NCBI RefSeq assembly: GCF_000739065.1
Contig: NZ_CP009149.1
Span: 992,001 to 1,056,000, forward strand
Direction of reading: 5' to 3'
DNA: 64,000 bases
Source of the DNA: Methanocaldococcus bathoardescens
GTDB lineage: Archaea; AGJL01; Methanococci; Methanococcales; Methanocaldococcaceae
The notes under the pieces were generated by a model. It saw nothing but the letters and a program-made list of their open reading frames with translations. It was not told where the DNA came from and ran no database searches. Of the stretch, positions 2,618 to 22,217 are shown one piece after another (positions within the stretch are counted from its first letter, which is position 1; each line of letters opens with the position of its first letter). Made by a program: the position numbers and the translations under genes.

Positions 2618-3712
2618 ATGCAGTATATCTATCCATTCACTGCTATCGTTGGACAAGAAAAGATGAAGAAAGCATTAATTTTGAATGCAATTAATCCAAA
2701 GATTGGTGGAGTTTTAATTAGGGGAGAGAAGGGAACAGCAAAATCTACAGCTGTTAGGGCTTTGGCAGATTTATTGCCAGAGATTGAAGTTGTTGAGGAC
2801 TGTCCATTCAACTGCGACCCAAAAGGAGAGTTATGTGATATCTGTAAAGAAAAGAAAGAGAGAGGAGAGCTAAAAACTATAAAAAAGAAGATGAAAGTTG
2901 TTAATCTTCCAATTGGGGCTACTGAGGATAGAGTTATCGGAACATTAGATATAGAAAAAGCAATAAAAGAAGGAATTAAAGCATTAGAACCAGGAATTTT
3001 AGCAGAGGCAAATAGAAATATTCTGTATATTGATGAAGTTAATTTATTGGATGACCACATAATCGATGTGTTGTTGGATGCAGCAGCGATGGGATGGAAT
3101 ATTATTGAAAGAGAAGGAGTTAAGATAAAACATCCCTCAAGATTTATTTTAGTAGGAACTATGAACCCAGAAGAGGGAGAGTTAAGGCCTCAAATTTTGG
3201 ATAGGTTTGGTTTGATGGTTGATGTTGAAGGATTAAACAATATTAAAGATAGAGTGGAGGTTATAAAGAGAGTTGAAGAGTTCAATAATAATCCAGAAGA
3301 GTTCTATAAGAAATTTGAAGAAGAACAGAAAAAATTAAGAGAAAAGATAATTAGAGCAAGAGAGATTTTAAATAAAGTTGAGATAAGCGATGAACTCTTA
3401 GAATTTATATCAAAAGTTTGTATTGAGTTAGGAATTCAAACAAATAGGGCTGATATAACTGTTGTTAGAACAGCTAAAGCTTTAGCCGCTTATACTGGAA
3501 GAACAAAAGTAACCTTAGATGATGTTAAAGAGGCTATGGAATTAGCTCTGCCACATAGAATGAGAAGAAAACCTTTTGAACCACCACAATTAAATAGAGA
3601 GAAATTAGATCAGATGATTAATGAATTTAAACAGCAAAAGAATAATGAAAATAATGAAGAAGAAAAAAAGGAACATGAAAATGATGACGTAAAAAAAAAC
3701 ATGATGAAATAA
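2618..3712 (+). CDS. chlI: Cobalt/magnesium chelatase AAA+ subunit, ChlI/BchI-like (zero-frame product)
   Basis: The first 340 residues form the AAA+ motor of the chelatase: Walker [16 protein letters not shown], the cysteine-rich ChlI insert ([15 protein letters not shown]), Walker [13 protein letters not shown] and a C-terminal helical lid ([21 protein letters not shown]). Metal chelatases need this ATPase together with a ChlD-like and a CobN/ChlH-like subunit; a cobN gene converges on this locus at 8358-4672, so cobalt insertion for cobalamin is the likely job. I chose the ATG at 2618 because GTGA lies just before it. The frame enters a Glu/Asn/Lys linker, reads through nine A at 3691-3699 and stops 11 bases later, while the ChlD half continues in the -1 frame. 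Confidence 0.87.
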
Positions 3713-4671
3713 GAAATGAAAATGATGAAGAAAATGAGGATTCAAATAATCAAAAAAATAATAATAACAATAATGAAAATGAAAATAAAGATGAATCTAA
3801 TCATGACGACTTTGAAAAGACCTTTGGTGTAGATGATAGCATTAAAGTTAATCCAAAACTAATACAATTTAAAATTAAGGATAATATCCATAGATATGGC
3901 TCTGGAAGGCATATTAAAAGTTATAGTAAGAGAGGCAGGTATGTTAAATTCAAACCTGCTAAGGATAAAATCGTTGATATTGCCTTTGATGCAACATTTA
4001 GAAGAGCGGCAATACATCAAAAAAGAAGAAGAGAAAAGGCAAATAAAGAATTAGCCATCTATTTGGAAAAAGAAGACATTGTAGAAAAGGTTAGACAGAG
4101 GAAGATATCATCCCATATATTGTTTGTTGTTGATGCAAGTGGTTCAATGGGAGCTATGAGAAGAATGGAAGCTGCTAAGGGAGCTATAATCTCTCTACTT
4201 TTAGATGCCTATCAAAAGAGGAATAAAATTGGAATGATTGCATTTAGAAAAGATAGGGCTGAGCTGATTTTACCTTTCACATCCTCAGTAGAGCTTGGAG
4301 AGAAACTACTTAAAGATTTGCCAACTGGAGGAAAAACTCCTTTAGCTGATGCATTTATTAAAAGCTATGAGGTCTTTGACAGAGAACTTAGAAAAAACCC
4401 AAACATAATTCCAATAATGATTGTAATTAGTGATTTCAAACCAAATGTTGCCATTCATAAAGACTATGTTAAAGAGGTTTTTGATGCGTGTGAGAAGATA
4501 GCTGAAAAAGGAATAAATGTTATATTAATCGATACAGAGCCACAATCATTTATAAAGATTGGGATTGGAAGAGAAATAGCTGATAGATTTGGATTTAAGT
4601 ATTATAAAATAGAGGAATTGAGCAAAGATAAAATTTTGGATATTTGTAAAAATTTGGCGATAGAGCATTAA
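2618..4671 (+). CDS. chlD: Full-length ChlID chelatase subunit, predicted by -1 frameshift or transcript slippage at 3691-3699
   Basis: If the ribosome slips back one base, or the transcript gains one A, at the A9 run, translation reads on as [14 protein letters not shown] through an Asn/Glu/Asp-rich linker into a von Willebrand A domain. The MIDAS motif DASGSM is clear at about 4132-4149, and the domain ends at 4671. The product is about 684 aa, the normal layout of ChlD/BchD (AAA+, acidic linker, VWA). The downstream part has no good start of its own before about 4063, so it is best read as the second half of this gene. Programmed frameshifting in chlD that yields both small and medium chelatase subunits has been reported for prokaryotes (work by Antonov, as I recall it). 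A sequencing error is the alternative. Confidence 0.75.
3691..3700 (+). promoter_or_regulatory. Slippery A9-C site, predicted -1 frameshift signal in chlI/D
   Basis: Nine A followed by C contain the heptamer A AAA AAC in the zero frame, the classic tandem-slippage pattern. A -1 shift joins the ChlI frame to the ChlD frame; without it translation ends at 3712. An AAGGA stretch about 20 nt upstream could act as an internal Shine-Dalgarno stimulator, which is inference. Confidence 0.6.
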
Positions 4672-17744: not shown

Positions 17745-18437
17745 TTATGCAACAGATGCAATCTCAACAGCAATACCAATCTTAGGTTCTACTCTAAACA
17801 CAATATTCTTCTGATATGGTCCAGGAGCCATATTATACTTCAATATCTTAGCTAAGTTTTTTAAATTTCCAGCAAATGCAAATATTTCCGTTTTTATTAA
17901 CATTGTTGCAGAAGTTCTTATTACTGTTAAAACCGATTCTGGCAATTCCTTTGGGTTTATTGTGCAAATTATTATTTTCTTTAAAGCCGTAATTCTCTTA
18001 AAAAAAGCCATTAAATCATTAACATTAACTTCACTTGCATCATTTGTTATCAATGCAGATAGAGAATCAAATATAATAACATCTTTTTCATAAAACGCTC
18101 TTGTTTCCATAACTTTTTTTAAAAATCCATCCTTTTTTTTATTATCTGCAATTAATGGATAGACAGGAATATACAATAAAGCTCCAGATAATAATTTTTT
18201 ATTAATAGGATAATCCAAAGAGTTCATCTGCTTTATAAATTCTAATGTTGTAAGTTGGGTGGAAACATAAGTTACTGAATACCTATTCTGTAAAAACCCA
18301 TAAGCCAATCTTTGGCATAAGACAGATTTACCTGTACTTTCCTCTCCCTCAATTATTATTAAACTACCATATGGAATACCACCCCCAATTCTTTTATCTA
18401 AATCATCTCTACTCAAATCAATTCTTGCCAGTTCCAT
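17745..18437 (-). CDS. flaH: Archaellum RecA-like ATP-binding protein FlaH/ArlH
   Basis: FlaH is a RecA/KaiC-fold protein that binds ATP and FlaI beneath the motor. The protein begins MELARIDLSRDDLDKRIGGGIPYG and carries Walker A IEGEESTGKSVLCQRL; the Walker B region is VIIFDSLSALI. The length of 230 aa is standard. An A8 run inside this gene (coding strand, at about 18133-18140) does not break the frame, a useful control for the A9 breaks seen elsewhere. The start at 18437 follows GGTGG. Confidence 0.93.
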   Translation of the reverse strand: MELARIDLSRDDLDKRIGGGIPYGSLIIIEGEESTGKSVLCQRLAYGFLQNRYSVTYVSTQLTTLEFIKQMNSLDYPINKKLLSGALLYIPVYPLIADNKKKDGFLKKVMETRAFYEKDVIIFDSLSALITNDASEVNVNDLMAFFKRITALKKIIICTINPKELPESVLTVIRTSATMLIKTEIFAFAGNLKNLAKILKYNMAPGPYQKNIVFRVEPKIGIAVEIASVA

Positions 18438-18455
18438 AATCCCCACCTAAAAAAC

Positions 18456-18989: not shown

Positions 18990-19406
18990 TTATTGTGAAT
19001 AGAAATACATGTTTCCATTATCTGAGACAATACATATTCTATTTGGTTGTGTCCAATTTACTATAATTGTTATGTTATCAAGTGGAACCAGGTATTTTTT
19101 TAATTGAGGGTAGTAAGATATATTTTCCTCTGGAACTACACTACCATCAAATAATATGCTAAATTTCTCAGGTTCAACTACTACTGAACCATTATTGTAT
19201 ATAGTTATATTTGTCTGTGAAGTACTAATTCTAACATCAGTAATTACTAACTTTTCATTTAGTTTATCATGTAAATGGGAATAATATACATTATATGCAT
19301 CATTGATGCTTTCATAATGATTGTCTATAGTCACATAAAGATACGCTCCACATATAAGCAATGCAATAATCATCACTGTCGCTCCTACTACTGAACTAAA
19401 TCCCAT
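18990..19406 (-). CDS. flaF: Archaellum stator protein FlaF/ArlF
   Basis: A 138-residue protein with an N-terminal hydrophobic helix (MGFSSVVGATVMIIALLICGAYLYV) and a beta-sandwich domain rich in NIT and NG motifs (VRISTSQTNITIYNNGSVVVEPEKF). This matches FlaF, which binds the S-layer and holds the rotor. The start overlaps the flaE stop by 11 bp, suggesting translational coupling. Confidence 0.85.
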   Translation of the reverse strand: MGFSSVVGATVMIIALLICGAYLYVTIDNHYESINDAYNVYYSHLHDKLNEKLVITDVRISTSQTNITIYNNGSVVVEPEKFSILFDGSVVPEENISYYPQLKKYLVPLDNITIIVNWTQPNRICIVSDNGNMYFYSQ

Positions 19407-19809
19407 AGAACTGTTCAGCCCCCTTCTTTATTTTTCTTAATTCCCATTCAATTTTATCAAGCAATCCTGCAGATATCTGCTTTCCATTCAATCTTTCAAT
19501 GAATAATAATGATATTATATGATCTGCTATATTTAATTTTCCTGAACCTTCAACTACATTTTCCTCATCAACTTTAATTCCCTTTAGGAATTTTAATAAT
19601 TTTGTTAATGCTTTATCTCCCAACCATCCAAGCATGTAATAAAACTCCAATACATCAGGTACATTTTCAGAACCAACTCTTTCACATAGATATTCTAACC
19701 ACTTTAATGCCATGATAATCGCAATTGGGTCATTATCAGGAATATCTTCTAATTTAGCAGGTTTGTGTATCTCTAATATTGTTGAAGCCATTGCATCCAT
19801 CTGATACAC
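19396..19809 (-). CDS. flaE: Archaellum accessory protein FlaE (FlaD/E domain)
   Basis: This 137-residue protein is a free-standing FlaD/E domain: IPDNDPIAIIMALKWLEYLCERVGSENVPDVLEFYYMLGW, with SGKLNIADHIISLLFIERLNGK near the end. The same pattern closes FlaD in this operon, so the two are paralogous. FlaC, D and E form the cytosolic ring that connects the motor to chemotaxis in Euryarchaeota. The RBS is GGGGGTG. A 106-bp gap separates it from flaD and may hold an internal promoter. Confidence 0.9.
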   Translation of the reverse strand: MYQMDAMASTILEIHKPAKLEDIPDNDPIAIIMALKWLEYLCERVGSENVPDVLEFYYMLGWLGDKALTKLLKFLKGIKVDEENVVEGSGKLNIADHIISLLFIERLNGKQISAGLLDKIEWELRKIKKGAEQFYGI

Positions 19810-19915: not shown

Positions 19916-20857
19916 TTAGATTGATTGTAATTCTTCAGCCCATTTTTTTATTCTTCTAATTTCTATTTCTAACATTTCAAGAACTTCAGGATCTATTGGC
20001 CTACCAGCAAGCTTTTCAATGTATAATAATGACATTATATGGTCACTTGGAGATAATTTATCTCTCGGTCTTATGTTTTCCATATCAAGTATTATTCTCA
20101 TATTTTTGGTGAATCTCAATAATTTTAATATAACTTTGTTTGATATCCATCCAATTTTATTGTAGTAATCTAAAACATCAGGTAGATTTGTAATACCTAC
20201 TTTACTAATCAAAAACTCTAACCATTTAAATACCAAAGTCATAGAAACTGCATCTTCAGGAATATCATTTAATCTATATTGCTTTTCTTCTTCAATAGAT
20301 GACATAGAGCTTCCCTCCTTAGGAGATTCCTCAGATACTTCCTGTTCTTTTTCTTTAATTTCTTCTTCCTTAATCTCCTCAACTTTTTGGATTTTCTCTT
20401 TTTCAGGTTCTACAGTTTCTTTGGTTTCTTCAATTTGTATAGTCTCCCCAGCTTCTTTCTCTTTAACAGCTTCAACATCTTCTTTAACTTCTTCTTTGGT
20501 TTCTTCAACAGTTTCAGTTTTTTCTATCTCTTCTGAAAGTTTAGTTGAAGCAGCCATTGTAGTAAGTTTCATTATAGTATCAAGTTTCTGCTCAAGATTC
20601 TGAAGTTTTTTATTAAGCTCTTCTGTTTTGTCCTCTCTTCCTTTAGATAAAACCTCACTAATTCTTTCGATAATTTTATCAAGCTGTCTTTTGGTAACTC
20701 TCTTACCCCTCAAATTATTTTTTAACAATATTATAACGAAAGAGGGTAGTTTTGATTTTAGATTATCCAAATATTCTTCAATTTCATCTTCAGTAAGAAT
20801 TTCTTCATCAGAAAGTATAGGAATTGATGACATTTCATTCACTGTTTTTTGTATCAT
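19916..20857 (-). CDS. flaD: Archaellum accessory protein FlaD
   Basis: The 313-residue protein has an N-terminal helical part, a long Glu/Lys/Thr/Val-rich low-complexity linker (about residues 110-205, repeats of EETKE-type sequence) and a C-terminal FlaD/E domain (DIPEDAVSMTLVFKWLEFLISKVGITNLPDVLDYYNKIGW). FlaD is part of the cytosolic switch ring. The ATG at 20857 has a strong GGGGAGG, although it lies 23 bp inside flaC; a second ATG at 20833 directly after the flaC stop, with AGTGA, is an alternative start and could give a shorter form. Confidence 0.9.
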   Translation of the reverse strand: MIQKTVNEMSSIPILSDEEILTEDEIEEYLDNLKSKLPSFVIILLKNNLRGKRVTKRQLDKIIERISEVLSKGREDKTEELNKKLQNLEQKLDTIMKLTTMAASTKLSEEIEKTETVEETKEEVKEDVEAVKEKEAGETIQIEETKETVEPEKEKIQKVEEIKEEEIKEKEQEVSEESPKEGSSMSSIEEEKQYRLNDIPEDAVSMTLVFKWLEFLISKVGITNLPDVLDYYNKIGWISNKVILKLLRFTKNMRIILDMENIRPRDKLSPSDHIMSLLYIEKLAGRPIDPEVLEMLEIEIRRIKKWAEELQSI

Positions 20858-21427
20858 GGGTATCCTCCCCGGACACTGACTTTATAAGCTCCTCCTCTAA
20901 CACATCCTCAATTATCTCTTCAAGGTCAATATTAAGCTGGTTTAAGTATAATGAACCTAATATAATCAAGTCATTTGTGAGCTCCTCAACAGTTTTTTTA
21001 AGTCTTTTATATTCAGTTTCTAATCTTTCAAGTTTTTCTAAACTTGTTGCAGTTATTTTTGAAACACCAATAAACGGGTTAATTTGATTTGACACAACTT
21101 CATAAAGAGCCATTATATCTTGCAAGTTTTCATTAATCTTATTAAGTTCTATTCTTAGCATTTCATTTTCTTTTCTTAGGTTATTTAGTGAAGATTCAAA
21201 TCTTGGCAATCTCGATTCAATATCATTAACTTTTGCCATTAGACCTTCAGTAGTTTCCATTAAATCTCTGACTGTTCGTTCAAGTTCCTCATATCTATCA
21301 GTATCTTCAAAATCTTCAAGAGCTTCTTCATCAATAGAAAGTTCATCTGTTTCTATTTGTTGTTTTTTTTTAATTTTAAGTTAGACAACTTATTTTTTAT
21401 TGATTCAATGATATCTTTTATCCCCAT
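20835..21427 (-). CDS. flaC: Archaellum accessory protein FlaC, reading frame interrupted at an A9 run
   Basis: A start with GGTGAATCC at 21427 gives MGIKDIIESIKNKLSNLKLKK, then the frame meets a TAG just after nine A (21371-21363 on the minus strand). Shifting back one base, as if there were ten A, continues as KKKQQIETDELSIDEEALEDFEDTDRYEELERTVRDLM and on through the whole coiled-coil FlaC body to 20835, about 197 aa, close to the usual FlaC size. The remaining long frame alone starts only at an internal ATG (21260). Either the gene is expressed by frameshifting or slippage, it is a mutant, or the base count is a sequencing error. Confidence 0.8.
21363..21371 (-). promoter_or_regulatory. 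A9 slippery run at the flaC frame break
   Basis: The coding strand reads TTA AAA AAA AAC AAC AAA TAG in the start frame; the run is nine A followed by C, the same string as in chlI/D. A -1 shift restores FlaC. Unlike in chlI/D, the unshifted product would be only about 26 residues. Confidence 0.55.
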
Positions 21428-21471
21428 AAGGATTCACCTTAAAAAATTTAAGTGTTTAAAAAAATGCCAAA

Positions 21472-22155
21472 TTACTGAAGTGGCACTACATGCTCAGTAA
21501 ATGTTGATGGGGCTATAAACTCAATAATACCTGAAGCTCCATATTCTGGAATTACTTCCCCATAAACTTTATCTCTTGGAGTTATTGGCATACCAATAGC
21601 AGTTAAGTTAATGGCAATCACTGCTTTATCTCCAAAGTTCATTGTTGGGTGGGTAGTATCACTCATTGAACCATCCCCATCCTGTAAGACAATTACACCA
21701 AATGTTACATTATTGTCTGACTGAGCATTTGTTAGAGAGCTCCAGAAATCTTTTAAATTGGAACTATCTGTCCCAAATAGATCCTTAGTCCCGTTATTCG
21801 CACAATCTGCCAATATTCCAGAATATACCAAAGATACTTTTTTATTTCCATTTGATATTGTAACTATTGTCGATGATAAATCAATCTCATCTCCAATATT
21901 TGGAGATATAAATATAACTAAGCTTCCTATTTCACTTTTATCCGGTGCATATCCCACAACCTTCACTACTTGGACACCACTTGCTACTTGTTTAGTACTT
22001 TCTTGTCCTACTCTTGCAGCTTTGTGTTGCAAATTACTTGCCGTGTTTATAATAACTGCCGCTGCTACTGCAGCGACTAATACTAAAGCGATGAAAATGA
22101 TAAGCGTACCTATACCAACCGCCCCTCGGCGACTTTTAAGATATCTCAACAACAT
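21472..22155 (-). CDS. flaB3: Archaellin FlaB3
   Basis: Third archaellin of the operon. From the ATG at 22155 (AGGTGG upstream) the leader is MLLRYLKSRRG, cleaved by FlaK before AVGIGTLIIFIALVLVAAVAAAVI, the hydrophobic filament core. The mature protein ends EFIAPSTFTEHVVPLQ. It is more divergent from FlaB1 and FlaB2 than these are from each other; in related methanogens the last archaellin makes the hook-like segment, which is an inference here. Confidence 0.93.
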   Translation of the reverse strand: MLLRYLKSRRGAVGIGTLIIFIALVLVAAVAAAVIINTASNLQHKAARVGQESTKQVASGVQVVKVVGYAPDKSEIGSLVIFISPNIGDEIDLSSTIVTISNGNKKVSLVYSGILADCANNGTKDLFGTDSSNLKDFWSSLTNAQSDNNVTFGVIVLQDGDGSMSDTTHPTMNFGDKAVIAINLTAIGMPITPRDKVYGEVIPEYGASGIIEFIAPSTFTEHVVPLQ

Positions 22156-22217
22156 ATTTGGCCACCTCAATATAAAATAAGTTTTCTTAGAAAATTTAAA
22201 AAAATTAAATTAGGGGC

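Follow-up and report, generated by a model that had tools for sequence, protein, structure and literature searches.

Documentation of -1 recoding in cellular genes of Archaea is sparse according to PMC8211752, where a single archaeal case of -1 ribosomal frameshifting is reported, that of fucA1 in Saccharolobus solfataricus. Closest to the locus studied here is chlI/D, a Mg/Co-chelatase-like gene, the -1 recoding of which has already been published for Methanocaldococcus and Methanococcus (PMC3711429; PMC8211752; PMC5009743); chelatase cassettes in E. coli were reported to shift at 63, 40 and 10% when they contained 11, 9 and 7 A's, respectively (PMC3711429). As to the archaellum gene flaC, its deletion renders Methanococcus maripaludis non-archaellated, the FlaC of M. 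voltae has been described as a membrane protein, and the fastest swimmers reported are M. jannaschii and M. villosus (all in PMC4187195). ArlC, ArlD and ArlE are thought to form the ring and the switch that binds CheF, and are described as having no transmembrane segment (PMC8978795). The comparison presented below makes it very probable that flaC (arlC) of Methanocaldococcus and related thermophilic genera is itself a recoded gene.

The flaC locus and its chlI/D counterpart

The window, i.e., the whole stretch of DNA that was analyzed, comprises 64,000 nucleotides of Methanocaldococcus bathoardescens (NZ_CP009149.1, positions 992,001 to 1,056,000), and coordinates are given relative to its first letter. 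The flaC gene lies on the minus strand, in the fla cluster, between the archaellins and flaD/E; its neighbor is an archaellin gene (21475-22170), and the cluster also contains the Arch_fla_DE genes (19919-20857 and 19399-19809) and a FlaH-like gene of the KaiC family (17748-18446). Membership in the FlaC/ArlC family was indicated by this position, as well as by a match to the FlaC_arch domain (PF05377; 21069..21233, minus strand), which covered residues 10-64 of a 141-aa frame with an E value of 9.1e-21 and scored 74.5 bits against a cut-off of 27.8.

The start of flaC is preceded by an RBS-like GGTGA (21434..21438, minus strand), and an SD-like motif is also found ahead of the flaC start in most relatives. 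Translation in the 0-frame from the ATG at 21427 produced MGIKDIIESIKNKLSNLKLKKNNK, followed by TAG; this upstream frame of 24 codons plus the stop (21353..21427, minus strand) encodes an amphipathic-helix-like N-terminus and is constrained in relatives. The body of FlaC is carried by the -1 frame, which is open from stop to stop over 20835..21380 (minus strand), and over the 180 bases past the A run this -1 frame alone scored as coding. The putative slip site at the junction is an A9-C string (21362..21371, minus strand), consisting of nine A's from 21371 down to 21363 and a C at 21362; it is phased TTA AAA AAA AAC, and the in-phase heptamer A_AAA_AAC occupies 21368-21362.

The original prediction had held that flaC needs a -1 shift at A9-C, with the same string and direction as chlI/D, and this was indeed confirmed in the sequence. 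On the plus strand of the window, the chlI part of chlI/D runs in the 0-frame to a TAA (2618..3712; sequence and domain search), and the ChlD-like part with its VWA domain is in the -1 frame (3688..4671, plus strand). The slip site between them, again on the plus strand, spans 3691..3700, with A9 at 3691-3699, C at 3700 and the in-phase heptamer at 3694-3700. The phase is GTA AAA AAA AAC, such that string, phase and the sign of the shift are all as in flaC, and the slip sites of both genes are kept across Methanococcales. The common slippage mechanism that had been suggested for the two genes is supported by these four features taken together.

Conservation of the break and of both frames

A flaC gene was found in 25 of the 36 Methanococcales genomes searched, and these were the same 25 that carry flaH; because it is confined to this set, flaC is not a decaying leftover. 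The other 11 genomes, near-complete ones included (e.g., G007, G009, G010, G011, G034, G035), gave matches to neither flaC nor flaH, which suggests that the whole archaellum set has been lost in them. Among the 25, the -1 break at the A run is present in 17, namely all ten Methanocaldococcus genomes and seven from genera g3 and g4 of family f2. Genus g1 was identified as Methanocaldococcus after a named copy of one locus (Methanocaldococcus sp. SG1), and g3 as Methanothermococcus after named copies; genus g2 we take to be Methanococcus, and the names of g4 and g5 and the thermophile and mesophile labels are likewise assumed by us. At the level of loci, the 25 genomes gave 26, since G027 contributes two, and these comprised 18 broken and 8 intact ones; G027, a bin that is 64% complete, was scored as broken by its A10 locus. 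The run was typed at 24 of 30 oriented loci, while L021, L025, L028, L030, L032 and L034 were read separately; L013 and L014, the contigs of which have the same lengths as those of L009 and L012, were left out as apparent duplicates of these two in a different collection. It is to be noted that L034, the second locus of G027, has the same sequence as L017 and contains A9 where its kin have A10, which places the downstream part in the third phase, unfit for a -1 shift; this is either a population variant or an assembly error.

The run in Methanocaldococcus is A9 in nine of the ten genomes and A11 in one, and in the seven broken f2 genomes it is A10, directly followed by TAG. It is located at codon 17-20 in Methanocaldococcus and at codon 11 in f2, in different alignment columns, and despite these differing positions its length stays between A9 and A11 at all 18 broken loci. 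The FlaC tree implies two changes of state, although a single one is also admissible, and G022 forms a long branch in it; the slip site may either have arisen twice or have moved, both of which are compatible with the tree.

In the remaining eight of the 25 genomes (seven of g2, and G022), flaC is in one intact frame, and its N-terminus is homologous to that of the broken genes. The intact MPNISEIIEEIKQKIKLGKK matched the recoded f2 sequence, MPNISEIIEEIKKK followed by IAFGKK, without a gap, and because of this match to the N-terminus of an intact homologue, the recoded product would be the ordinary protein. An unbroken homologue that corresponds to the predicted recoded product thus exists in eight genomes.

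Selective constraint was evident on both sides of the junction. The pooled pN/pS of the upstream 0-frame was 0.13 for the seven f2 loci and 0.39 for nine Methanocaldococcus loci, and that of the downstream FlaC core was 0.13 (six loci). The contrast between frames was strong in f2, where the minimal changes in the upstream 0-frame numbered 1, 1 and 12 at the three codon positions; in Methanocaldococcus it was weak over a short segment, with a pN/pS of 0.50 in frame +1 versus 0.39 in frame 0. For most loci, the upstream segment showed an amphipathic-helix pattern, with muH at about 0.5-0.6 and a shuffle p of about 0.01-0.09, and the helix has diverged in L009 and L010 (muH 0.41, p 0.13). Overall, the break and the shift site are kept between species and both frames are constrained, as is characteristic of programmed -1 recoding.

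On the strength of these sequence comparisons, it is very probable that the flaC split is bridged by programmed -1 recoding through slippage on the A run. In the mechanism that we propose, the first 14-37 codons of flaC would be read in one frame and the remainder in the -1 frame, and the machinery, whichever enzyme it may be, would slip on the 9-11 A's at the junction, such that a fraction of the products would be full-length FlaC of about 183-199 aa and the rest a short N-terminal peptide; in the polymerase version, the messages concerned would gain one extra A. The likely use would be to keep the share of FlaC, a motor or switch component, constant in what an archaellin-rich operon produces, and such control of its dose relative to archaellin would be the simplest purpose.

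Long A runs and the putative slipping machine

Long A runs are rare in this genome. In its single contig of 1,607,556 bases, both strands counted, there are six runs of at least A9, and the string A9-C occurs only twice, in flaC and in chlI/D. Two of the other four runs are in frame, 6 and about 9 codons before the stop; of the remaining two, one is a T9 immediately beyond the stop codon of an L12-like ribosomal gene, which is on the opposite strand, and the other is intergenic. The window holds exactly two nine-A/T runs, i.e., those of flaC and chlI/D, in agreement with the original prediction, for which no other A9 had been noticed in a coding frame there. The gene context of A9 runs was surveyed in G000, G001, G002 and G003, and interior A9 runs that remain in frame were found in the relative G001. 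Together with the two in-frame A9 runs near C-termini, these exclude, by the criterion set with the original prediction itself, a strict code in which A9 means frameshift, although they do not argue against recoding as such. The idea of a mechanism tuned to A9 therefore stood only in part: it agrees with A9 in nine of ten Methanocaldococcus genomes, and is at odds with A11 in the tenth, A10 in f2 and the A9 runs that stay in frame.

Runs of A8 number 92 genome-wide. Of these, 34 were in the sense direction in genes with the frame kept, one was at a sense frame change, two were at antisense frame changes that resemble gene ends, and 55 had a flank that was not clearly coding, such that breaks near gene ends may escape this test. 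The A8/T8 runs of the window, at 18133, 35398 and 53214, were among the 92, and no frame change was flagged at any of them, as had been noted earlier for the A8 runs in flaH and the V4R gene. A second pass through the A8 runs for a flaC-like shape gave a single match, L146, which by eye was an ordinary in-frame gene start. The one A8 run at a sense frame change lies outside the window (L132, G000:C1:289568-289577) and breaks a sodium-dependent-transporter-like gene with the opposite sign of shift; in G003, G006 and G011 this gene is uninterrupted, with 493-496 aa in a single frame. A break of this kind is what a private indel or a base-calling error looks like, and it served as the contrast case for the reading of the flaC break as a sequencing error.

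The rarity extends to a depletion with a distinct onset. Compared to synonymous shuffles, sense runs of at least A8 in the window were depleted (4 observed versus 20.6 expected, with none of the 300 shuffles below 12), and sense A7 runs were not (46 observed versus 36.9 expected). For A/T runs in the window, 58, 3 and 2 were counted at lengths seven, eight and nine, where a first-order Markov model predicts about 54, 22 and 8, which shows the same sharp drop. Since the depletion sets in at A8 and not at A6-A7, it points to a minimum run length, as in polymerase slippage; it could also stem from DNA-replication slippage.

We estimate an even chance that slippage of the RNA polymerase is the main step in the heat-loving species. 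Transcriptional realignment calls for a homopolymer of at least about 8-9 bases without interruption, and A9-A11 was found at all 18 broken flaC loci. The dnaX gene of Thermus provides a precedent with a run of nine bases (PMC5009743), and the absence of a common RNA fold after the run (see below) also speaks for the polymerase. In chlI/D, the codon ahead of the lysines varies (GTA, ATA, TTA, CTA) while its final A is constant, even though A-ending codons are far from universal in usage, at 22% for Val, 44% for Ile and 67% for Leu. Against a polymerase mechanism, the chlI/D genes of three g2 genomes (L091-L093) retain the -1 break although their run is no longer than A6 and ends right before TAG, and the 0-frame of the f2 flaC stops directly after A10; the former fits ribosomal slippage and the latter ribosomal slippage at a stop.

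The strongest rival is, in fact, a purely ribosomal programmed -1 shift, in which tRNAs would slip at a heptamer within the run (A_AAA_AAC/AAG or A_AAA_AAA) with no part played by the polymerase, and its likelihood falls somewhat short of even. An in-phase heptamer is present at the broken loci typed, namely A_AAA_AAC/AAG in Methanocaldococcus and A_AAA_AAA in f2; nonetheless, a heptamer of this type is contained in any A9 and is not diagnostic in a run so long. The ribosomal reading gains from the g2 chlI/D genes, which would work, if at all, with A6, from the 63, 40 and 10% shifts of the E. coli cassettes with 11, 9 and 7 A's (PMC3711429), and from the f2 stop right after the run. It is weakened by the flaC runs, which stay at least nine long at all broken loci, and by the avoidance in genes of runs of at least A8 but not of A6-A7. 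Moreover, no downstream RNA fold was shared among ten folded stretches (nine flaC, one chlI/D; 37 C), of which one had a z below -2 (L006, -2.77), although not all -1 sites need structure. Twelve chlI/D loci, when folded, gave no consistent signal, L083 alone reaching a z of -3.1, and no clear fold was seen downstream of the A6 in L091-L093. There is a small chance that polymerase and ribosome both slip. Polymerase slippage is slightly favored over ribosomal slippage, from which it is not separated by these data. In its broadest form, which we put forward tentatively, the polymerase reading would hold that the heat-loving Methanococcales permanently express at least two unrelated genes, chlI/D and flaC, by way of RNA-polymerase slippage at long A runs, which are purged elsewhere; the flaC slip site, having arisen at or moved to two codon positions in two families, would determine how much of a motor or switch component is made from an archaellin-rich message.

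Other readings of the break fared less well. The upstream frame could be a separate leader peptide, with translation of FlaC initiated within the -1 frame and no slip involved, and this is improbable. An ATG does stand at the start of the core in six of the ten Methanocaldococcus loci, one with an SD-like motif, and because of these ATGs a second, shorter FlaC product is possible in some Methanocaldococcus loci. However, between the run and the core an ATG is absent in 15 of the 18 broken loci, and L019 and L026 have neither ATG nor GTG nor TTG there; furthermore, the N-terminus is part of the same protein in intact homologues, and the upstream frame shows conservation at the protein level.

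Phase variation, which the original prediction had entertained, would have the DNA run change its length between generations and turn FlaC and motility on and off, and is very unlikely. The presence of a homopolymer within a motility gene would suit it, as would the run of one bin locus, which is A9 instead of the A10 of its kin. However, an in-frame run length was found in none of the ten Methanocaldococcus genomes and at none of the other broken loci, the odd A9 locus of the f2 bin being also out of frame, such that on and off lengths do not occur side by side among the ten Methanocaldococcus and the broken f2 loci; in addition, the position of the run within the gene has shifted, and yet all 17 genomes concerned, with G027 represented by its A10 locus, show the same -1 break. 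Phase variation at the DNA level was therefore rejected. Lastly, that the break is a sequencing error or the gene dead is scarcely credible, for although homopolymers are error-prone and the same genome has one private A8 break of opposite sign, the identical break recurs in 17 of 25 flaC-bearing genomes, which in practice excludes the common base-calling error that had been raised, the core has a pN/pS of 0.13, flaC is retained exactly where flaH is, and the frame is kept at 34 sense A8 runs.

Significance and relation to known systems

If G003 is M. jannaschii, as we presume, a fast swimmer carries a broken flaC and must have a way of bridging the break. Should slippage be the only source of FlaC, very fast-swimming archaea would depend on recoding to build their motor, and a conserved N-terminal helix would be missing from gene models in which an internal ATG is taken as the start. 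This helix is of interest because FlaC was called a membrane protein in M. voltae (PMC4187195), yet ArlC/D/E are described as being without a transmembrane segment (PMC8978795). No earlier report of flaC recoding was found in the literature searched, although the supplementary tables of PMC3711429 may list a flaC cluster; as far as that literature shows, flaC would, if the proposal is true, be the first archaeal motility gene for which programmed slippage is described.

Among the known systems, dnaX of Thermus thermophilus (PMC5009743) resembles flaC in belonging to a thermophile and in having a nine-base run, at which slippage is transcriptional; in dnaX the unshifted frame gives the long product, whereas in flaC only the slip would do so, and with archaeal machinery. 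The tssM gene of Citrobacter rodentium (PMC4256274) likewise encodes a component of a cell-surface machine and is interrupted early, its product being restored by transcriptional slippage; it belongs to a different domain of life, and the flaC break recurs across two families. The fucA1 of Saccharolobus solfataricus shares with flaC the -1 recoding of an archaeal cellular gene; it is ribosomal and, as reported, concerns one gene in one strain (PMC8211752), while the flaC break extends across genera and has no recognized stimulator. The nearest relative is chlI/D, which has the A9-C string, the phase and the -1 direction in common with flaC in the same genome, and the site of which is conserved order-wide; its 0-frame product, however, is long and probably a useful subunit, whereas that of flaC is a peptide of 14-37 aa, so that in flaC only the shifted product looks useful.
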